Below are positions 30,674-43,395 of a stretch of DNA of 53,615 nucleotides, one piece after another. The notes below the pieces were generated by a model. That model made no database searches, was not told the DNA's origin, and worked only from the letters and a program-made list of their open reading frames with translations. Within the stretch, counting starts at the first letter, position 1. Every line of letters begins with the position of its first letter. The stretch is from contig JAAUUW010000003.1 of the NCBI GenBank assembly GCA_012030735.1, positions 1 to 53,615 on the forward strand. Direction: 5' to 3'. A program made the position numbers and the translations under genes. The stretch comes from Acaryochloridaceae cyanobacterium SU_2_1 (GTDB taxonomy: Bacteria; Cyanobacteriota; Cyanobacteriia; Thermosynechococcales; Thermosynechococcaceae).

Positions 30674-31620
30674 ATGTTTCCTGCTTTTCTTCCTTCTGCT
30701 GTTGGTCAACTGACTGAGGCAACCTCCCTAGCCTTGGCGCAGATTATTCAGCAGCAGGCTATTGCTACCCCTCTCCAAGTCAATCCGATTCTGACAACCT
30801 ATGCCTGCCAGGGACAGGCTGGCGTTCCTTTGCTGTTGTTACCTGGCTTTGATAGTTCTTTGCTTGAGTTTCGACGGCTTTTGCCCCTTCTAGCAGAGCA
30901 AACCGAAACTTGGACGGTCGATTTATTAGGATTTGGCTTTACAGAGCGGCCCCTGGTTTGGCCTATAGCCCGACCCAGATCAAAACCCATCTCCATTGTT
31001 TCTGGCAGCAAATGATCCAACGGCCTGTGACCTTGGTGGGGGCCTCTATGGGGGGTGCCGCTGCCTTGGACTTTGCGCTCACCTATCCAGAAGCCGTTGC
31101 CCAGTTGGTGCTCATCGATAGCTCTGGTTTTGCACCCTCGCCCATTGCCAGTAAATTTATTATGCCGCCGCTGGATCGATGGGCCACGGCTTTTTTGGCA
31201 AACCCCAAGGTGCGGCGCTGGATTAGTCAGCAGGCCTATTGCGATCGCAGCTTCGTTACTGCCGATGCAGAATGTTGTGCAGCCTTACATTTACAAGATC
31301 CAAACTGGTCCTCGGCCCTGATTGCCTTTACCAAAAGTGGTGGCTATAACTTCCTCTATGACAGCATTCAGACAATTTCTCAGCCCACCTTGATTCTATG
31401 GGGAGAGGCGGACAAAATTATGAACCGTCGCGATGCCTTAAAATTTGCAGCTGCGATCGCCCAAAACCAACTGATCTGGATCTCTGATTGCGGCCATGTA
31501 CCCCATTTAGAGCAAGCAGACATAACCGCCCAATCTATTCTTGAATTCCAGGCTAGACTCTCCCCTGCCACTCTTGAGCAAAGGGGTCTATCCCTAGGGT
31601 CAGCCCATACAGACCCTTAA
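30674..31620 (+). CDS. Alpha/beta hydrolase, frameshifted
   Basis: Serine hydrolase of the alpha/beta fold. The first frame has LLLLPGFDSSLLEFRRLLPLL (oxyanion region) and TVDLLGFGFTERP. One C is missing in the run at 30950-30953; with it the frame continues GLAYSPTQIKTHLHCFWQQM, then the nucleophile elbow TLVGASMGGAAALD, the acid region LILWGEADKIM and catalytic His in SDCGHVPHLEQAD. Corrected length is about 315 residues. Substrate unknown. Its TAA stop overlaps the stop of the convergent GGDEF/EAL gene in the palindrome TTAA. Confidence 0.85.
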
Positions 31621-33892
31621 GCTGGTTGATTAGCTAATACCTGATGCCCCAATAACAAAGAGGTTGCCGCAGTAACCGTCAAGGGTGGATCAAATAGAAA
31701 ACCCTGTCCATAATCACAATTGAGAGAACTCAGATATTTGAGTTGCGATGGACTCTCTACTCCCTCGGCCACCACCTTCAGGCCTAGGTTTTGGGCCAGT
31801 AAAATAATAGAACGAATGATGGCTTGCCCCTCTGCACCGATATCAATGCGTTTAATAAAATCACGATCAATTTTTAGGGCGCTAATGGGCAAGCTGTATA
31901 AATAACTCAGGGAGGAGTAGCCCGCCCCAAAATCGTCTAGATACATCTCTAGCCCTAGGTTTCTCAACTCTGACAGTAAGGTCAAGGTGGCATGATCATT
32001 GCGAATAATCGAGCTTTCTGTCAGCTCTAACTTCAAGGTGGCCGGATCAAGCTGAGTCTTGGCCAAAATATCGGCGATATCTGCCACCAAATTACTGAAA
32101 AAAAACTGCTTGGCGGATAAATTTACATTTACCTGCAGGAGCTGCCCTGGGGGAAGTAACCGCTGCCATTTTTTCAGTTGTTGACAGGCTTGCTCCAAGA
32201 CAGACAAACCTAAATTTTGAATCATGCCAGATTCTTCGGCAATGTCAATCAACTCTGTAGCAGCGATGGGCTGATTGTTGCTGTCATGCCAACGCACCAA
32301 GGCTTCAAAGGCTGAAACAATCCCAGTCTTTAAGCAGATAATGGGTTGGTAGTACACCTCAAAACTTTTCTCCTCAATGGCTCGCCGCATCTCTGTTTCT
32401 AGTTGTGATCGAGCAATCGTTTGAGTTTGCATACCGGTATTAAAGACTTTATGGCAGCCCTTACCCGCAGATTTAGCCTGGTACATGGCGATATCTGCAT
32501 CCTGTAAAATCTGCTCAGGATGATCATAGCCAAAACTGCTAAAGGTAATACCCACACTGACATCTACAAACACTTGCTGAGATCCCAGGTTAAAGGGCAA
32601 GGTCAACTGCTGTCGGATTCGATCAGCCGTTCCCAGGGCATCTTGAGTGCTTTGAATACCGTTAAGCAGTACCACAAACTCATCTCCCCCAAGACGAGAC
32701 GCGGTATCCCCAGGTCTTAAGGAGGCCAAGAGTCGTTCGGCAATGGCAATTAGAAGTTGATCGCCAACGCTATGTCCCATACTGTCATTGATGATCTTAA
32801 AGCGATCTAGATCCAGAAACAGAACAGCAAACAAAAATTCAGGATAGCGATGCAGTTGCTGGAGGGATTGTTCTAAGCGATTAAGAAACAGAGCACGATT
32901 GGGAAGATCCGTGAGGGGATCATGAAAAGCATGGTGCAAAAGCTGAGTTTCTTTCTGCTGATGTTTTAAAGCACCACTCAGGTTGGCAACCAAGATCATC
33001 AAAATAGCAATATCTGCTGCGGACCATTGACGAGCAAATTGACAGTTTTCTAAACTGATGAAACCCCAGAGCTGCTCCTCAATCACGATGGGGAGCAAGA
33101 GAACAGATTCTACTCCCGCTTGAATTAAATGCGATCGCTCAGGATTTGCAAATTCTTTCGTCACCCAGGCCAAGGGTTGCTGTTCTAATAAGGCCTGATA
33201 CCAAGTCCGCGTCGATAAAGGGAAGCCGACTTGAGGGTACCAAGGCAATTGCAATCTAGCAGACAGTTCCTTGCACTTCACCCAGCCATATCTCAGTGAG
33301 GGAGACAGCTCTCCTGGTTCCTCAGCATTCTCAAAGGCGCAGATATACATCCGGTCAACCCCTGTGGCATTTCCCACACGGCCAAGCCCTTGGTTGCCCA
33401 GGTATTAAAATCTGCCTGGGCCAGAAAATATTGACTGGCGGTCGAGATCGCAGCCAACAAGCTTTCTTGGCGTTGCAACGCAACCTGCTGCTGATGAGAC
33501 TCCGTGCCATCTAGCCAACATCCCAGAATCTGTGATCCGGAAGCAGGAGAAGGCTCGATCACATAAAAATCACTCTGAACCCAGCGATAGATTTGATTCT
33601 GATGGCGCAACCGATAATGGCAGCGTTGTACTTCACCTAAAGACATCTTTTGTAGAGTCTGGAGAACTTGTAGCCGCTCCTCAGGATGAAGAAGAGAGAG
33701 CCAAAAGCTGGGTTCTGCCATCAGCTCCGACGAGGTATATCCTAATAAACTAGAAATATTCTCAGAAACTGTTGTTAACTCACCATCCTCTAGCTGAGCA
33801 CTGAAAAAGACGACCGGACTAGCAGCTAGCAAAGAACCGAACTTAGCCTGTTGATTGGACTCAAAATCTCCAAACACCTGAGATGACAACAT
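31617..33892 (-). CDS. PAS-GAF-GGDEF-EAL cyclic-di-GMP enzyme, frameshifted
   Basis: Bifunctional c-di-GMP signalling protein of about 758 residues. The PAS domain has VSENISSLLGYTSSELM and WLSLLHPEERLQVLQ. After the break at the CCC run 33387-33389 the GAF domain follows (NATGVDRMYICAF, ESVLLLPIVIEEQLWGFISL). The GGDEF domain is intact (SRLGGDEFVVLL) with a canonical inhibitory RxxD five residues before it (RPGD). The EAL domain has FEALVRW, LELTESSI, DDFGAGYSSLSYL, KIDRDFI and VVAEGVE, so both cyclase and phosphodiesterase activity look possible. No transmembrane segment is visible. The GAF lacks an obvious bilin-binding Cys. The frameshift probably is an error, since both halves are otherwise intact. 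Confidence 0.9.
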
Positions 33893-34091: not shown

Positions 34092-35564
34092 TTACCCAAA
34101 TTGCCCTCCAATATTTCTTAGGAGGGCTAGTAAGGGAGTTTGGCTATAGAGAAATCCGAGGGTATCCTGTAGACTACCTAGGTTGTTGGGCGGATCGACG
34201 AGCAACGTATCACTAGCAACAATATGCTGCCAATTGAGTGGATTAATATCCACCTGCTCACCCTTGAGGGCCCAAGCCTGCTGCATCACCTGGAGAAACT
34301 CATGGGCCACAATTCCATAGCCCAAGGTGCTGGGGTGAATGCCATCCAAACCAAACAGCCCACCCCTATATTTGAGCATTGGATCAGTCTGACCTGGATC
34401 AATCCAGGGGTATCGACTATCTACAAGGGGTTGACCCTCGACTACCCGGGCTTGGGTAGAGGGATTGGCCGCTAAAGCCTGCACCAGTCCCAAGGGAAAT
34501 TTGTAGCTCGGGCTCCCCTGACGCCGCCGATAGGCCAGCTGATCTAAGACTGTGCAAATATCAACCAAATGCCAACCCCTATCTTGCGCTGTTTGGTGGA
34601 GCATCTGATTGTATTCATCGATGGTGGCGTCGATTTGACGGATTTCATCTCTCTTTAAATGGGGATGGTGTTGGGGAGAAAAGTCCCGATCCCAAATCCA
34701 AAAATGGGTGTAAAACTCAAAGTATCCCGCTGCATCTTGGCCTTGGCCTGCCGCTGCGCCAGGGGTAATGCCTCGACTGACAGGCGGAATGGTCACATGG
34801 GGCACATTGCCAATAAATACATGTTTGGCCTCGATTTTTGCTAGTTCATCAATGGCCCGATCTAAGGCGATTTTAAAATGTTCTGGCCGCCAAAGGGTAG
34901 AGCTTCGGTGATGGGCCAAGTTGTCTAGCTCTGTGCCATCAGACCAGGTCAACTGCAAATTGACGACGGAGGCGAGACAGTGATTAGCTCCTAGCCAAAC
35001 AATCAAATTATCAATGCCATGGTCTCGCTTGGCAATCTGTTCAGCAACACCGATCTGGGTTAAATGCTGATATTGGGGGTTGAAACTAGGATTAAGCGTG
35101 CGACGGACACTTCGGTACTGGGCAAATTCTGGAACCTGGTTAAAACGATCCTCTCTGGGTAGCGGTATTTGGGTACGACAGATCTCTTCGGACAGGGTGT
35201 AACAGTCAACCCACTGAAATCCCCAGTTGGCAAGGTTGTGATGGAGTGGCCCCGTAGAGGAGGGATGAATACCCTCACCTCGCTCCCAATAATCTTCGGT
35301 ACGATTCATAAAACTCTTGACAGTTTGTACTGCGGGCAGAAATTCCAGCCAATTTATCCGGGAACCATATCGGTTAGACAAGGTCTTCAGGAGTGTTTCA
35401 AGGTTGAGAGGCAGACCGCTTTCCCCAGAAAAATCGGGACTTTTGAACTCAGCCTTGAGAGATTGAGCCAGCATTGCCGGAAAAGCAAGATGAGTTTTAG
35501 AAATGCTGCCACTCTGAAAACCTTGGGTTAAACTGTCGCCGATTGCCACAAGTTTTGCAGACAT
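34092..35564 (-). CDS. Large SGNH/GDSL-type hydrolase, last gene of the oxylipin-like operon
   Basis: Esterase/lipase of the SGNH superfamily, 490 residues, longer than typical GDSL enzymes (200-350). Block I is AIGDSLTQGF with the nucleophile Ser12. Block III is IVWLGANHCLASV (oxyanion Asn). FIGNVPHVTIPPVSRG follows, and block V is LFGLDGIHPSTLGYG with the catalytic Asp and His. There is no signal peptide, so it is probably cytosolic. A Trp/His-rich middle (YFEFYTHFWIWDRDF) is unusual. Lying 63 bp downstream of the di-haem cytochrome gene, it could release fatty acids from lipids to feed the oxygenases, or hydrolyse oxidised esters; that role is inferred only from position. Confidence 0.82.
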   Translation of the reverse strand: MSAKLVAIGDSLTQGFQSGSISKTHLAFPAMLAQSLKAEFKSPDFSGESGLPLNLETLLKTLSNRYGSRINWLEFLPAVQTVKSFMNRTEDYWERGEGIHPSSTGPLHHNLANWGFQWVDCYTLSEEICRTQIPLPREDRFNQVPEFAQYRSVRRTLNPSFNPQYQHLTQIGVAEQIAKRDHGIDNLIVWLGANHCLASVVNLQLTWSDGTELDNLAHHRSSTLWRPEHFKIALDRAIDELAKIEAKHVFIGNVPHVTIPPVSRGITPGAAAGQGQDAAGYFEFYTHFWIWDRDFSPQHHPHLKRDEIRQIDATIDEYNQMLHQTAQDRGWHLVDICTVLDQLAYRRRQGSPSYKFPLGLVQALAANPSTQARVVEGQPLVDSRYPWIDPGQTDPMLKYRGGLFGLDGIHPSTLGYGIVAHEFLQVMQQAWALKGEQVDINPLNWQHIVASDTLLVDPPNNLGSLQDTLGFLYSQTPLLALLRNIGGQFG

Positions 35565-35627
35565 TTAAGTCGCTCCTTGGAAAGATATGGGTGTTTATTT
35601 TGCTGCAGAAGGTTTACGCAACCTGGG

Positions 35628-37061
35628 CTACAGGGTTTTGAGATATTCAATTAATGCCTTTTTATCCTCAGCAGCCAAAGTTGTACCGTAGAGATGTCCT
35701 TGGCTGCTATTTCCAGGCAGTTGGGTTTCGTATCTAAACCCAGATTGTTGTGCGGGGGATCCTGTTGAGACAAAGCCCATGAGGTGGGGGTCGTAGACAT
35801 CGTATCCCCGGTAAAAGACCTGGGGGCGTTGGTCAGGTGAGTTGAGCAGATCCTGGAGATTGGGAACAGAGCCATTGTGAAGATAGGGGGCGCGTAGCCA
35901 TAATCCGTCGAGGGCGACGGCTAAATAGCCATCGGTTTTACGGAGCTGGTCAAAGTCGTAGTCGTAGCCCTCGGCAAAGTTGTTATATTTGTCGGCGGCC
36001 TCTTCGGTCCACATATCCAACCGATGGCGATCTGTGCCAATTTCGGCAAGAGGGATGACTGTGCCAGTCCGTTCTCCTCCCAAGGCATGACAAGCAGCGC
36101 AACTGTTTTCAAAAACTTGGCTTCCCTTAGCCGCCAGTACCTCATCAACGGGAAAAGGGAAGGTGGGCGGATCCAGTTCGGAAATATATTTCTCTACCCG
36201 CTCAAGTCCGGCAATATTGATTGACTTGCGAGTAGCACCATCGCCAAGGGCACCGGTGTTGACGGTTTCGGTGAGCGAGGTTTCTAGCCCATCCCAGTGC
36301 AGAGCAAACCCTTGATGCTGCTTTTGGTTCCAAAGGGACATCATGTCGGAGTTGCCGATAGTGTCATCCACTGGTATTTCTAACATGCCAAATTTCACTG
36401 GATTAAAGGGGTCAATACGCCCTGGCCCCCAGTCGGGTCGCGAGTCTGTCCAGTCAAAGGATGTTCCTTGCTCCAGCATCGCTTTTTGAGTGCTAGGGAT
36501 AATCAGAAACCGATAGAGTAATTTATCTAAGACTGATAGTTTATGGTTGTATTCAATTTCAGGCAAAATGTAATCGGCCGTGAACCTCGGATCTTGAGCA
36601 CAAGCCTTGAGGAAGCGCACATAGCCTAAGGAATTAAATTTCACTGATGGGCCAGCAGGCACAACCGTGGGAATATCCTCAGGAGCCTTGCGATAAGTGG
36701 CTGAATGGCAAACAGCACAGGTAATGCCCTGTCTGGGGAAACCGATCGTTTTTTTAGACACTCCTACAGGGGTTTCTTTACCTTCCTCCCAGGTGAATCC
36801 TAAAGAGGTATAGCCGTTTGGCCCTGGTAAGTGTTCAGGAAATAGGCGCGGTAGAACCTCCCAAATCCAGTAGGGAACGCCTTGATCATTCTCAGTGCCA
36901 ATGGATCCGTATTTGAAGTGTTCTGCAGGCGATTCGATGTAGGTGTCTACCTCCCGCAGCAGGTTATACCAGCCGATGTAGCCCACAGTTCCCACGAGGA
37001 GAACGAGAATGAGGAGGGTGGTTACAATTGCACTCCCAATTCTTGATTTTAGAACGCCCAT
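35628..37061 (-). CDS. Membrane-anchored di-haem cytochrome c (RoxA / oleate diol synthase-like), copy 2
   Basis: 477 residues with an N-terminal membrane anchor (IVTTLLILVLLVGTVGYIGW) and two CxxCH haem sites: C115-C118-H119 (TCAVCHSATYRK) and C321-C324-H325 (SCAACHALGGER). Family blocks include HFKYGSIG, GVPYWIWEVLP, WGPGRIDPF, LHWDG and LDGLWLRAPYLHNGSVP. Related di-haem c proteins include bacterial cytochrome c peroxidases, rubber oxygenase RoxA and the Pseudomonas oleate diol synthases, several of which oxygenate lipids in the periplasm. It is paralogous to the gene at 37570-39069. Activity cannot be decided from sequence: peroxidase, dioxygenase or electron carrier are all open. Confidence 0.83.
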   Translation of the reverse strand: MGVLKSRIGSAIVTTLLILVLLVGTVGYIGWYNLLREVDTYIESPAEHFKYGSIGTENDQGVPYWIWEVLPRLFPEHLPGPNGYTSLGFTWEEGKETPVGVSKKTIGFPRQGITCAVCHSATYRKAPEDIPTVVPAGPSVKFNSLGYVRFLKACAQDPRFTADYILPEIEYNHKLSVLDKLLYRFLIIPSTQKAMLEQGTSFDWTDSRPDWGPGRIDPFNPVKFGMLEIPVDDTIGNSDMMSLWNQKQHQGFALHWDGLETSLTETVNTGALGDGATRKSINIAGLERVEKYISELDPPTFPFPVDEVLAAKGSQVFENSCAACHALGGERTGTVIPLAEIGTDRHRLDMWTEEAADKYNNFAEGYDYDFDQLRKTDGYLAVALDGLWLRAPYLHNGSVPNLQDLLNSPDQRPQVFYRGYDVYDPHLMGFVSTGSPAQQSGFRYETQLPGNSSQGHLYGTTLAAEDKKALIEYLKTL

Positions 37062-37100
37062 AGTCTTAAGTCCTCGATAACTTCAGCCCTTGCGGGGATG

Positions 37101-37525
37101 TTACATGTTGAGTTTTGCGGCAGCAGCCAACGCCTCTTGGTCCTGCATTGCCAAATAGAGCAAGATGCCTTCTGTTACCCCAAAAATGAGATCAATAATG
37201 GCAATGGATAAAAGCCGAGTTCTTGACCGAAAAACAATACAGCAATGAAGAAAAAAGAGGCTCCGCCGCCACGGGTAACCAGGACTGACATCCAAGCCGT
37301 GGCACGGTAGCGATAGGGTGCGATCGCACCTGGAATATAGAGAATACTAATTTCCAGCAGCAATAGACCTGCTGCCCGCACCCAGATAATCGGCACTGGA
37401 ATCGTCATATGCAGCAGCGATAGCAACCACTCTGGGAAAAAGCAGGTGGGAATGATAAACAGGATATTGGCCGCAATTCCGACCCAGACCACGCGACCAA
37501 ACCATTTTGCATATTGATTATTCAT
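37101..37525 (-). CDS. Small four-helix membrane protein between the two cytochromes, frameshifted
   Basis: Unrecognised, about 141 residues with four hydrophobic segments: VVWVGIAANILFIIPTCFF; IIWVRAAGLLLLEISILYI; SVLVTRGGGASFFFIAVLFF; and IAIIDLIFGVTEGILLYLAM. The frame breaks at the A4 run 37210-37213; one more base restores LGFLSIAIIDLIFG and the end EALAAAAKLNM. It lies 40 bp after one cytochrome gene and 45 bp before the next, so it is co-transcribed. It could be a membrane partner or quinone/haem-handling subunit for the anchored cytochromes; this is inference from position. Confidence 0.7.
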
Positions 37526-37569
37526 ACAAGCAATTGCTCCAACTCCTATAGCGAGGATCCTCGGCAGTT

Positions 37570-39069
37570 TTAGAGTGTTTTGAGGTATTCCACCAAGGCC
37601 GTTTTATCTTGAGAAGACAAGGTCACGCCGTAGAGATGGCCGTCATGGCCATTCCCCGGCAACGACGTATCGTATTCGAAGAATTTGCTGCCGTTGGCTG
37701 CTGCAACATCTGCAACAAAGCCCACTTTCTCTGGGTCGTAAACATCATTGCCGCGATAAAACTTAGCAGGACGGTTTTCAGGAGCCTCTAACAGATCTCG
37801 CAGGGTGGGTACCGAGCCATTATGGAGATAGGGGGCGCGCAACCACAGTCCGTCAAGGGGATGATTAGCATAGCCATTAGTTTTACGGAAATGGGTAAAC
37901 CGCTGATCCTCCCCTTTATAAGTAATGTCAGAAAACAAAGTGTATTGATTGGAGGCGAACTCATAGGTATACGAGTTTAATCGCCCTGGATCCGTCCCAA
38001 TTTCTTCAATGGGTGTGATGTGACCGACCCCTTCACTGCCAAAGGCATGGCAACTGGCGCAGTTGTTTTCAAAGATGGGTTGACCTTGAGCTGCAAGATC
38101 TGCATCCACTGCGAAGGGATAGGTGGGGGCAGGCAGATTCCATAACCACTCTGCAATGCGGGTAATAGACGCAAAATTTATATTTGTGGGTGAAACCAAG
38201 GCCAAGGCTGCACTCTTATTGCGTTCCGCCACCGAGGTATTATTACCATCCCAATGGAGTTGCATCCCTTCCCGAGGTTCTTGCTGCCAAATACTAGGAA
38301 AGTCGCTAGCAGCTGCCTCAATTTCTGCTGAGGGTAGATCCTTCAAATTGATATTAAAGGTGCGAGTTTTATAAGGTGTAAAGGTATCGACCCGCCCAGG
38401 GCCATACAAGGGTTGATCAGCTAAAAAACTGAGTTTGTCAGCCTGCACACTGAGCAATGCCCTGGTCTGTGGAATTGCGATATAGCGATAGAGCAGAGCT
38501 TGAAGAGGATTGAAATTGGCACCTAAAGTTTTGAGGTAAGGCATCATCTCCCGTGCATTGAACCGAGGATCCTCAGCCACACTTGTAATAAATTGGAAAT
38601 AGGCTGCCAAATTGACGGTGTTAGACGGCATTGTTGATACGATCTGGGGCAAACTGTCCGGCTTATCGCGCAGGCTACCCATATGACAGAGCGCACAGTT
38701 ATTGGTGACAACCTCCAGGCCCAATTGTTTATCCTTAGCAAAACCAATGGGCAGATCTTGACCTAGTTCTTGGAGAAACCCCAACTGGGTATAACCAGTT
38801 TCAGAAATTTTATAGTCTTGAATGGGTAAATACTCTGGAAACATGACGGGTAGCACCTGCCAAATCCAGTAGGGAATGCCCATGGTGGATGCACCGCCAA
38901 TGGACCCGTATTTGAAGTGATCGTTGATGTTGCTATATTGGGGCGTGCGAGCCGTTAGCAGAGGCCATGCCAAAACCAAAATAATAACGAGGACTAAACT
39001 CACCAATCCGATCACGAGTTGATTGAAGCGGCGACCTATTTTTTGCACCAAGTTGGGTGAATGGCTCAT
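37570..39069 (-). CDS. Membrane-anchored di-haem cytochrome c, copy 1
   Basis: 499 residues. The N-terminal anchor is LVIGLVSLVLVIILVLAWPL. Haem sites are C125-C128-H129 (NNCALCHMGSLRD) and C337-C340-H341 (NNCASCHAFGSEG). It shares with copy 2 the blocks HFKYGSIGG, PYWIWQVLPVMFPEYLP, YGPGRVDTF, LHWDGNNTSVAE and LDGLWLRAPYLHNGSVPTL, and the same end (DKTALVEYLKTL). The haem domains face the periplasm or lumen. Tandem, diverged di-haem paralogues in one operon recall the two-enzyme oleate diol synthase pair of Pseudomonas, where one makes the hydroperoxide and the other converts it to a diol. The parallel is a hypothesis. Intact. Confidence 0.83.
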   Translation of the reverse strand: MSHSPNLVQKIGRRFNQLVIGLVSLVLVIILVLAWPLLTARTPQYSNINDHFKYGSIGGASTMGIPYWIWQVLPVMFPEYLPIQDYKISETGYTQLGFLQELGQDLPIGFAKDKQLGLEVVTNNCALCHMGSLRDKPDSLPQIVSTMPSNTVNLAAYFQFITSVAEDPRFNAREMMPYLKTLGANFNPLQALLYRYIAIPQTRALLSVQADKLSFLADQPLYGPGRVDTFTPYKTRTFNINLKDLPSAEIEAAASDFPSIWQQEPREGMQLHWDGNNTSVAERNKSAALALVSPTNINFASITRIAEWLWNLPAPTYPFAVDADLAAQGQPIFENNCASCHAFGSEGVGHITPIEEIGTDPGRLNSYTYEFASNQYTLFSDITYKGEDQRFTHFRKTNGYANHPLDGLWLRAPYLHNGSVPTLRDLLEAPENRPAKFYRGNDVYDPEKVGFVADVAAANGSKFFEYDTSLPGNGHDGHLYGVTLSSQDKTALVEYLKTL

Positions 39070-39131
39070 TGAAATATCACTCCCTCAGATATCAGTATCG
39101 GTTTCATACCCTGGGTAAGCTCAACCCTATG

Positions 39132-40642
<1,511 letters not shown>

Positions 40643-40717
40643 GTCTATGTCCTTAGGGTGCAGAGCCATGAACGACTGATGAGAAGACGACTGATGAGGA
40701 AAGGATTGGTTATGGAA

Positions 40718-41604
40718 CTACTGGTTACGAAACCGCTGATGTCTGAAAAAGAGTTGGCTATCACCGTAGAAGGAGGTCACAAAGGCTGAAGTTGTCTCTA
40801 GATGGCCGATCTGCTGGGCTTGCTGACGGGCATTAGTGGGCATCATCGTCCCGCTACCTTGCTCTCCAGGAAGGGCATAGACCGAGAACAACTGGCAACC
40901 CAGATCGATACTGGCCAGATCGGTTCTAAAGTCATGGGGGCCTTCGGCAAACTGGAGGTCAGGATTGGGAACCAAAAATACTTGGGTGGGCGTTTGGGGC
41001 TGTGCTTCTGCTTGGCCCTGCTGGGTGACTATTCCCAAGTTCTGGAGGTCAATGCGGGTGGGATATTTAGTCACCCGACGAAAAATCAAGTTAGTGATCC
41101 TTGGCCCTAACTCATTGACTACGGGCACAATATTAGAGAATTCATGGGCAAAGAAGTTGTGGTTCAGACCTTGGCCAGAGAGGGAGACCAAGGCCGAGAA
41201 ATTACCGGCAGGCTGATGGTCCGCCAATAACTTGATGGCCAAGCCGGGGGCAAAACCGCGATCGCTAGGATCTCCGGTCACAGAAGCCCTGATCAGTCCA
41301 TAGTCTGATCCTTAAACAATCCGGTATACGGAGTGTCAGTTGCTGGTACAAACTTAATTTTTGCCACACTGCCATGGGCATGGATCGCCTTGCGCCAACG
41401 ACTAGGGGCCTCATCTTCTTGTCGATCCATCTTGGTGGTGAGAGCGGTCAACAATAGCCCTAGAATATCGATGCGGCGGAGGGGTGGGTTGTTAGTATAG
41501 GCAGATTTGAGGATGCGCTCATTCCAAAGAAAGGTTTGCTTCTGTTGGGCAGACCAAGTGGGATAGTCGGAGGGTAAGGATCGAAGTCGTGGGCTGTGGG
41601 CCAA
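40718..41604 (-). CDS. Small catalase-related haem protein, frameshifted
   Basis: About 295 residues. I read it as a minimal catalase-fold protein: KAIHAHGSVAKIKF resembles the distal-His motif HAxGxxAxGxF; DPSDRGFAPGLAIKLL resembles RDxRGFAxKFY; HEFSNIVPVV follows; and RRVTKYPT offers the R-x3-Y proximal pair. The end reads GHLETTSAFVTSFYGDSQLF. The frame breaks at the CC 41310-41311: one extra base turns FKDQTMD-stop into FKGSDYGLIRASVTGDP. An ATG at 41633 (MHNRTEIQKYWP) may be the true start but is in another frame. Catalase-related proteins in cyanobacteria, including an Acaryochloris fusion, act as allene-oxide or epoxide synthases on fatty-acid hydroperoxides. Fold is moderately supported; activity is inferred. 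Confidence 0.62.
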
Positions 41605-41642
41605 TACTTTTGAATCTCTGTCCGGTTATGCATGGTGATCCC

Positions 41643-43395
41643 CTAGGAACTAAGATTGCGCCAAGGTGCGAAGCCGTTGGTGACGCCGACGAGGGCGGGG
41701 GCGAGTTTCGGGTAGTGACGCTTTAACAAAGTCAGCATGTTGTTGCGGTAGATCCATTCCAGGCCAAAGGGGGTATATATTTCGGCGCGGTAGTCTTTGC
41801 TGAAGAAGCGATCGCTTTTCAGTCGCCGTGAGGCCATCAAAATAAAGACTCGAAAGGCGGTATCACTAAAACCAAAGCCTTGGGGTAGATCTTCGGCAAA
41901 CATGCCCACCATTAAATCGACACTGTCGATGTCGTCGTTATAGGCTTCGCGTAGTTCCTTGACCCAGACAGGATTGCTGGTGATTTCTTCAAAGGTTTTG
42001 ACAGGCCCCCGACCGATTAGTTCTCGGAAGCGGTTATAGCGGGGAACGCCCCGTTCGCGATCGCGTAGGATATCCACCGCTGCAAGATCAAATACTTCGC
42101 CATTGTCGCGTCTATGCATCTGCAAAAAGCGAGGGAAGTTATGCAGGGTCACTGCCCCTGGATGGGCAATGCCTAAGGAGTAGAAAAGATTCTCCATGCC
42201 GATCTCTTCCACAATGGCTCTTGTGCGCTTACCAGAAGAGGCAAAGAAGTCTTGCTCTTGCAATAGCTGACCCTCTAGAGAGTAGTACTGGTAGTCATCG
42301 GGGGATGAGGGGATGCATCCGATAAACCGAGACAAATTCCTCCGTTAAGTAGTAGGGCGTACCATGATGGTCAGTGGAGGAGCCAGGAATGCCGCTCAGT
42401 AACTCCCCTTCACCAATATGTCCGAAAATATACCGGAAATCTTCTCCTAGGAAGCCAGACCAGTTGACATTGAGGGCAATGTCTGTGGCGGGTAACGGTA
42501 AAATGGCGGGCGTCCATTCGGCGGTATGGATTTTGGCGGTTAAGGCGGCAGTGATTAACCGGGCATGATCAAAGAGCTGGTCATCGGACCAATCGGGATA
42601 TTTCTGGTGGAGGCGATCGCAAATACAATTATGCTCTTTGACAAATAAGGTATGCAGCAAGGACAGCCCTACCCACCAGTTATCGTTAAAGCCAGTGGCA
42701 TCAACACCGCTCTCATCGAGGGGCAATAGGCCATCATCGCCAATGATCAGTTTGCCGCCTTGATGGGAGCGAAGCCGATCTACAGTTTCGAGATCGCTGC
42801 CATAGATCTGTGAACCATCCCACCAATGGGTGACATGGTTAATAAAGGTGGGGGGGGCTGAGCTACCGTTCCCCTTGCGAGTCTCGTCGATGGCGGTTTT
42901 ACCAATTTCTAAGGGGCGATGCTCGGCAGGCCAGTCATCCTCCTCTGCTAAGGGCAATTGAAACTTTTGCTGGGTTTGATTGGTGCCATGGGAAAACCAG
43001 TCGTGATTTTCAAACTGAATCCAGGCGGCAGCCAAGACATTCAAAATGGTGGCGGGTATAAATTCATCCCTGGTCATTAATTGACGACTGATCGCTCTTG
43101 GGTTCGGTGTCAAGATTGAGTCCTGATCAGGGAAAGTCTCTGACAACGGTACATTGCGACCAAAGCGTGTTCCCACCATGCCCATCTCTGGATGATCCAG
43201 ATCGTTAAAACTGCCGTCCACAGTACGGGCGGATAGATGACGACCATCGGGGCTGGGTTGAGGTTGGGGGAGTGTATCTGTGGGTGAGATCGCAGCAGTA
43301 TCGTGAAGATTATTTTTCCGTAATCTGTTTCTAAAACCAAGTAACCTCAATAAAGCTAAGGGAGTCAATAACTGATGCCATTGCTTGTTGGCCAT
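41643..43395 (-). CDS. Alpha-dioxygenase-type haem peroxidase (PIOX family), frameshifted; first gene of operon
   Basis: Member of the animal-type haem peroxidase superfamily closest to plant fatty-acid alpha-dioxygenases, which add O2 to C2 of fatty acids, giving 2-hydroperoxides that decay to shortened aldehydes. His131 in FENHDWFSHG is the distal haem His; THWWDGSQIYGSD and LFVKEHNCICDRL follow. YRMH gives Tyr358 and His361, with the spacing of the catalytic Tyr and proximal His of alpha-dioxygenases. MASRRLKSDRFF lies near the expected carboxylate-binding Arg region. The GGGGG run 42300-42304 has one extra base: the first frame stops just after HPLIP and the second continues PDDYQYYSLEGQLLQ to the end. 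Corrected length is about 583 residues, normal for the family. No signal peptide. Confidence 0.87.

Follow-up and report, generated by a model that had tools for sequence, protein, structure and literature searches.

The contig JAAUUW010000003.1 of Acaryochloridaceae cyanobacterium SU_2_1 (assembly GCA_012030735.1; 3.0 Mb in 206 contigs, 87% complete; the host genus includes Acaryochloris) was analyzed over a stretch of 53,615 nucleotides, here called the window, with regard to a row of genes that an initial annotation had read as a candidate oxylipin pathway. The coordinates bear out seven genes in a single direction on the minus strand between positions 34092 and 43395:

41643-43395, minus strand: alpha-dioxygenase-type haem protein (alpha-DOX), in two frames (pieces 42295-43395 and 41643-42335), PF03098 on both
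40718-41633, minus strand: CAT-family protein, in three frames, with an intact relative of 320 amino acids (aa) at locus L013; called 'catalase-related' in the initial annotation
39132-40642, minus strand: OYE-type ene-reductase with a CxxCxxC(x10)C motif, in two frames, PF00724 (Oxidored_FMN) on both pieces
37570-39069, minus strand: cytA, RoxA-like di-haem cytochrome c with hydrophobic N-terminus, intact, 499 aa, PF21419 and PF00034
37101-37525, minus strand: DOXX (a label only), small membrane protein, in two frames, intact relatives of 144 aa
35628-37061, minus strand: cytB, RoxA-like di-haem cytochrome c with hydrophobic N-terminus, intact, 477 aa, PF21419
34092-35564, minus strand: GDSL/SGNH hydrolase, intact, 490 aa, PF00657 with 40.8 bits (gathering score 23.6)

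From these coordinates the genes for alpha-DOX and the CAT-family protein are 9 bp apart and the following gaps measure 75, 62, 44, 39 and 63 bp, so that the spacing of about 40-75 bp first described fits most of the row but not its front. A strong ribosome site had been noticed at the front only; however, AAGGAG precedes the GDSL gene and GAGGGAG precedes cytA. Pfam and NCBIfam matches agree with the names alpha-dioxygenase, OYE, di-haem cytochrome c (twice) and SGNH, whereas 'catalase-related' found no support. The row itself is real, although four of its seven genes carry frame breaks in the window, and since the same order recurs in relatives and in other phyla, it appears to be more than a chance arrangement.

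The conserved core

Conservation was followed by scanning a species-genome collection with cytB, the best 80 of 125 relatives giving 79 loci. At the 64 loci where the sequence extends 5.5 kb or more upstream of cytB, the reductase gene was found 61 times, cytA 61 times and DOXX 60 times. A locus holding both the reductase and cytA was taken as a core locus (n = 68). The order OYE-cytA-DOXX-cytB seen in the window is kept in 43 of the 68 core loci, DOXX comes last in 6/68 and was not found in 3/68, and the genes are split and turned in 16/68, namely 15 loci of Halomonadaceae and one of Thermoleophilaceae. The 15 Halomonadaceae loci carry OYE-cytA(-DOXX) and DOXX-cytB on opposite strands; at 13 of them cytA and cytB each have an adjacent DOXX gene of their own. 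The phyla represented are Cyanobacteriota, Pseudomonadota (Halomonadaceae and Alphaproteobacteria), Acidobacteriota, Actinomycetota (one assembly) and Planctomycetota (one assembly, in which this search did not find DOXX). DOXX lies after cytB, not before it, at L075, L077, L079, L081, L082 and L088, with two tandem copies at L082. Five pairs of entries represent the same locus twice (L014/L055, L015/L089, L016/L087, L017/L090, L052/L138), and the pooled counts of motifs and haem sites, of the four-cysteine motif and of gene families in the 85 loci compared hold a few such duplicates.

Reductase, cytA, the membrane protein and cytB hence co-occur far beyond the genus, but the seven-gene set as a whole does not: the CAT family goes with the core only in Acaryochloris-type loci, and none of the 79 other cytB loci holds a match to the GDSL gene. 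A lack of conservation had been named beforehand as an outcome that would refute the pathway first suggested; the co-occurrence of the core genes did not bear out this refutation. Matches to the latter were present in 3/29 genomes of the taxonomic order, this genome included, and co-occur with the core only in the window; the GDSL gene was rejected as a conserved member of the cluster and is perhaps its local lipase. In the genus-mates L013 and L014 the six genes from alpha-DOX to cytB are full-length and in the same order, without the GDSL gene. A 780-aa HTH-NACHT protein, of a type seen in defence proteins, adjoins the cluster at L013 (12912-15254). Within the 29 genomes of the order, cytA-like genes occurred in 5, always as neighbouring pairs. 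At an E-value (E) of 1e-20 the family NF040606 had matches in 7/386 cyanobacterial genomes and in 0/14 control genomes, among which P. aeruginosa was not shown to be.

Candidate first oxygenases and neighbouring genes

The gene accompanying the core differs between lineages. The 49 core loci complete on both sides comprise 15 with alpha-DOX, 33 with cyt700 (a third, larger di-haem protein, with two CXXCH in 42/42), none with both and one (L074) with neither. A lipoxygenase (LOX; PF00305 in the example scanned) is present in 14/49 complete loci, every one of them with cyt700. Over all 68 core loci, alpha-DOX is found in 19, cyt700 in 43, both in 0 and neither in 6, five of these six starting within about 2.2 kb of the reductase gene, so that their upstream side is short. 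A single Acaryochloris genome carries an alpha-DOX-type (L055) as well as a LOX-type cluster (L089), and in Moorena (L069) about 3.4 kb, containing other genes, separate alpha-DOX from the reductase gene. ABM (antibiotic-biosynthesis-monooxygenase) genes, often two, follow the LOX gene in many Nostoc-type loci (18 loci; L070:13188-13496), and a protein of 300 aa that has no Pfam match is encoded close to the reductase and alpha-DOX genes at 8 loci, seven of them of Halomonadaceae (L112:6615-7523).

In the cytB tree (55 rows; 20 near-duplicate loci and L013, L015 and L016 left out) the alpha-DOX label needs at least 4 changes on the starred branches. A second tree comprised 46 rows, with 18 names left out. 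In the alpha-DOX tree, which holds only the first piece of the window gene and omits L101, L104, L106, L107, L109 and L111, cyanobacterial alpha-DOXs are placed together whether or not they accompany the cluster. Both observations imply that alpha-DOX probably joined the core more than once. The mutual exclusion of alpha-DOX and LOX gave a Fisher p of 0.002, a value that ignores kinship.

Recurrent lipid-hydrolase families were counted at 35/68 core loci, which is a lower bound, or at 29/68 without the family lacking a Pfam hit in the two members scanned. A DUF676-type lipase family occurs in 18/85 of the loci compared and another alpha/beta-hydrolase-like family, with two members without Pfam hit, in 13/85. 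Patatin is present at an Acaryochloris LOX-type locus, at a Halomonas locus and on Rhizobium pRL11, and a DUF900 hydrolase in alpha-DOX-type relatives. The Pfam scan of neighbours covered ORFs (open reading frames) of at least 180 aa at 36/79 loci, those within 1600 bases counting as near (103 of 105 ORFs) and those beyond 3500 as far (108 of 112 ORFs). The 103 near ORFs included patatin 8 times, GMC 9 times, SDR 8 times and DUF900 7 times, while all four were absent from the 25 commonest families of the 108 far ORFs.

On Rhizobium pRL11 the order is OYE-cytA-DOXX-cytB-large di-haem protein-GMC-patatin. The plasmid pCAL6303.01 of Calothrix sp. PCC 6303 (L138) has no core and carries alpha-DOX-(hypothetical, transposase)-CAT-GMC-patatin; its GMC is 41% identical to the GMC of the Rhizobium core cluster, which links the two modules. 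This plasmid was typed as mobilizable, and its alpha-DOX is annotated as peroxidase family. A related but different cluster is found on pNGR234a (L136, 9040-15960), where a RoxA-like fragment, an annotated catalase (which we take to be y4iL), a di-haem peroxidase and a patatin-like protein stand in a row with insertion sequences nearby.

The encoded proteins

The alpha-dioxygenase assignment held: the intact 583-aa alpha-DOX of L013 aligned with the rice alpha-dioxygenase 4kvj at E 5.8e-115 over residues 3-578, the two window pieces are 84 and 88% identical to this L013 relative, and the YRMH motif with the predicted catalytic tyrosine is present in 18/18 unbroken cluster alpha-DOXs and kept in the first piece of the window gene. 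Genes for alpha-DOX were found in 7/386 cyanobacterial genomes, in one only distantly.

The reductase belongs to the OYE/ene-reductase barrels (PF00724), as first described, but the likeness to plant 12-oxophytodienoate reductase (OPR) was not borne out. Its best solved relatives were NADPH dehydrogenases (E 1.1e-40; YqjM 9.9e-37) and 2,4-dienoyl-CoA reductase (1.8e-35), while OPR3 scored below the YqjM-type and 2,4-dienoyl-CoA reductases at E 1.9e-29. A C-x2-C-x2-C-x10-C-like motif is present in 57/57 reductases examined and resembles the Fe-S site of FadH-type enzymes; it is a putative cluster site. The analogy to the plant jasmonate enzyme was rejected on the strength of this motif and of the ranking of relatives. 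H176 and Y181, each shared by 95% or more of the 57, are presumably the His/Tyr active site of the OYE barrel.

Both di-haem cytochromes exceed the cut-off of 150 bits for NF040606 (cytA 195.7 bits, cytB 164.4 bits). The rubber oxygenase structure RoxA 4b2n was matched by cytA at E 3.7e-07 and by the profile of cytB relatives at E 4.1e-13, for the latter as the sole solved relative at E 0.001. Two CXXCH motifs are found in 63/63 cytA and 76/76 cytB sequences of at least 430 aa, with median lengths of 491 and 480 aa, respectively. The window copies of both read PYLHNGSVP; APYLHNGS is present in 70/76 cytB and 30/63 cytA sequences and YRxH in 2/76 and 1/63. For a DOXX relative, AlphaFold gave four long helices with a pLDDT of 92.6; the DOXX alignment comprised 45 of 56 sequences. 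DOXX had no Pfam hit and no PDB match below E 0.98, and its identification as DoxX or another known fold was rejected.

The CAT-family protein had no Pfam, NCBIfam or PDB match, either by sequence or by profile. Comparison with y4iL-type catalases by hhalign gave a probability of 0.8% (E 0.07) against 0.4% (E 0.13) for an unrelated control, and a home-made motif matched 28/1217 other ORFs and 0/10 y4iL-type proteins. The AlphaFold model, from an alignment of three rows, reached a pLDDT of 32. No support for an identity as a catalase came from any of these comparisons, and the catalase or allene-oxide-synthase step of the initial annotation goes back to a name without profile support. The CAT family was present in 5/386 cyanobacterial genomes, and an alignment-based repeat search returned the same 5/386. 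Relatives at 61% were found in the genomes G303 and G118 (the Calothrix plasmid) and relatives at about 30-33% in two genomes of the same family code as well as on Pseudomonas veronii plasmids. At L053 (7570-12428) and L054 (7357-10888; genomes G047 and G217) a distant CAT gene is preceded by a gene for a protein of about 675 aa; in the case of L053 this protein matches lipoxygenase at E 2.8e-10.

Proposed pathway, alternatives and known systems

The replacement of alpha-DOX by a third di-haem protein, often together with LOX, and the presence of patatin and alpha/beta-hydrolases near the cores lend support to a fatty-acid substrate. We give an even chance to the reading of the row as a modular lipid-oxidation pathway of the oxylipin type. 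What the comparisons show are the protein families, the conserved gene set, the alternation of alpha-DOX with cyt700 and the lipid hydrolases near about half of the loci; substrate, order, product, compartments and electron donor we infer. The pathway first suggested thereby retains the conservation of the core, the swap of first oxygenases and the hydrolase neighbours in its favour and loses the catalase step, the OPR analogy and the membership of the SGNH gene.

Following this, a lipase would free an acyl chain, which a first oxygenase would oxidise: here alpha-DOX, forming a 2-hydroperoxy acid that can decay to an aldehyde one carbon shorter, and in other lineages the larger RoxA-like di-haem protein cyt700, presumably an oxygenase and often accompanied by a lipoxygenase. 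The membrane-anchored di-haem pair cytA/cytB and its partner DOXX may process the intermediate on the outer or lumenal face, and a cytosolic Fe-S-type ene-reductase would then saturate an activated C=C bond, preceded in certain lineages by an alcohol dehydrogenase of the SDR or GMC type. Cleavage of C=C bonds by RoxA-like enzymes yields carbonyls, and one may speculate that a shared aldehyde or enal explains the replacement of cyt700 by alpha-DOX. In its widest form, which we advance tentatively and at slightly less than an even chance, the proposal is that of an undescribed lipid-oxidation pathway in five phyla, in which a fixed cassette of four-Cys ene-reductase, two membrane-anchored di-haem cytochromes and four-helix membrane protein would be fed by interchangeable first oxygenases and interchangeable lipases, two unlike oxygenase chemistries converging on a common intermediate that may be a fatty aldehyde or enal. 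To our knowledge, oxylipin formation is understood in only a small number of bacteria, with the diol synthase of Pseudomonas and certain lipoxygenases as the examples. Shared by Nostoc-type cyanobacteria, halophiles, soil bacteria and the plasmids of rhizobia, a conserved cassette would offer a common genetic handle, by which the physiological role of bacterial alpha-dioxygenases could be tested by simple gene deletions.

Several observations weigh against this proposal. None of the counted lipase families was present at 33/68 core loci. The list of far-ORF families ends at those with two members, so that up to 2/108 could be hidden. The gene set of the Halomonadaceae is not one operon, and at six Crocosphaera/Cyanothece loci cytB stands alone, three of these (L091, L094 and L095) having at least 5.5 kb upstream. 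On the tree, the exclusion of alpha-DOX and cyt700 comes down to about four independent switches or pairs with a median p of 0.5 in a sign test; with kinship leaving four such pairs, the exclusion is to be taken as a pattern and not as proof. The hydroperoxides made by alpha-DOX and LOX differ, so that a common core needs a shared intermediate, which is hypothetical. Moreover, cytA and cytB are shorter than PA2077 and PA2078 of Pseudomonas aeruginosa (624-634 aa, with YRQH, according to PMC4496055) and are without YRQH.

Alternatively, the genes might serve the clean-up of lipid peroxides and aldehydes, with the di-haem pair as a peroxidase, the reductase removing toxic enals and the dioxygenase channelling surplus acyl chains to breakdown. 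The NCBIfam name of cytA and cytB, di-heme-cytochrome C peroxidase, and the lipase, SDR and GMC genes nearby are in line with this, as is the fact that barrels of the OYE family reduce enals. However, a dioxygenase of its own is not what one would expect of a clean-up system, yet alpha-DOX is found in 15/49 and lipoxygenase in 14/49 complete loci, and we consider this explanation unlikely.

We regard as quite unlikely that the core acts on a substrate other than a fatty acid (an isoprenoid, hopanoid or other polyene), with alpha-DOX or LOX supplying a hydroperoxide oxidant or a side product. RoxA, which is matched by cytA and is the one solved structure related to the cytB profile, acts on rubber; cyt700 occurs without alpha-DOX and without LOX at 7/7 alphaproteobacterial and 4/5 acidobacterial loci; the same core is combined with two different oxygenases of fatty acids; and the core loci without the counted lipase families would also fit. 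The recurrent companions LOX, alpha-DOX, patatin and alpha/beta-hydrolases, by contrast, speak for fatty acids, and among the near ORFs, whose annotation covers part of the neighbours, the sole name pointing to isoprenoids was lycopene cyclase (3 near ORFs, best E 1.6e-05), which is probably a cross-match of the FAD domain.

A further question is whether the copy in the window is functional. Located against intact Acaryochloris proteins, one frame change each was found in alpha-DOX (about 42305), the reductase (about 40164) and DOXX (between about 37256 and 37178) and two in the CAT-family gene (about 41570 and 41311), five in total across four of the seven genes; cytA, cytB and the GDSL gene are open. 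In the broken as in the intact genes, the codon differences between the window and L013 fall mostly in third positions, with ratios of nonsynonymous to synonymous codons of 0.39 (alpha-DOX), 0.67 (CAT), 0.46 (OYE) and 0.42 (DOXX) for the broken and 0.48 (cytA) and 0.45 (cytB) for the intact genes, the CAT gene thus being the least constrained. Since substitution in the broken genes resembles that in the intact ones, sequencing error or a very recent break in the cell is the probable origin of the frame changes in the window copy. The adjoining PAS-GGDEF-EAL gene (31617-33892) is likewise split according to Pfam (frames 33293-33892 and 31617-33377), the overlapping ORFs 30674-31015 and 30910-31620 seem, judged by eye, to be pieces of one alpha/beta hydrolase, and the contig seems rich in frame errors. 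That the window holds a decaying pseudogene cluster in which nothing works, a view compatible with any reading for the relatives, is rather improbable: the number of frame changes and the failure to find a second copy in this genome favour it, but the assembly is incomplete and in many contigs, another window gene is also split, the broken genes are about as constrained as the intact ones (CAT somewhat less), and three genes are intact.

A description of this gene combination was not found in the open-access literature by title and start of abstract, among the matches listed; the proposed lipid-oxidation cassette has parts in common with known systems. With the rubber oxygenase RoxA, cytA and cytB share C-terminal sequence homology but neither size nor gene setting. 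Brash and co-workers reportedly described in 2014 a linoleate 10S-dioxygenase and a catalase-related 10S-hydroperoxide lyase of Nostoc punctiforme; there, as in the window, a haem dioxygenase gene is said to be followed by a so-called catalase-related gene. In the window, however, the dioxygenase is alpha-DOX-like and the CAT protein could not be tied to catalases, and the distant CAT gene of L053 adjoins a lipoxygenase-like gene and not a haem dioxygenase. The cluster alpha-DOX shares full-length homology and YRMH with CalDOX, LepDOX, CsDOX and the rice and Arabidopsis alpha-DOXs, all of which are described as single enzymes. CalDOX and LepDOX are cyanobacterial alpha-DOXs assayed on C10-C14 acids; according to that report, information on cyanobacterial alpha-oxidation systems is lacking, and a search of it for the words 'operon', 'gene cluster' and 'catalase' found none (PMC8720084). 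Another parallel is the oleate-diol synthase pair PA2077/PA2078 of Pseudomonas aeruginosa (FadCcp, ODS operon), RoxA-like di-haem proteins making oxylipins. Compared by published features, without direct sequence alignment, cytA and cytB resemble them as an adjacent paralogous RoxA-like pair with two CXXCH each, PYxHNGSVP and a fatty-acid oxygenase setting (PMC4496055). Unlike the Pseudomonas genes, cytA and cytB have a membrane-protein gene between them, and an ene-reductase, a lipase and a separate first oxygenase nearby.

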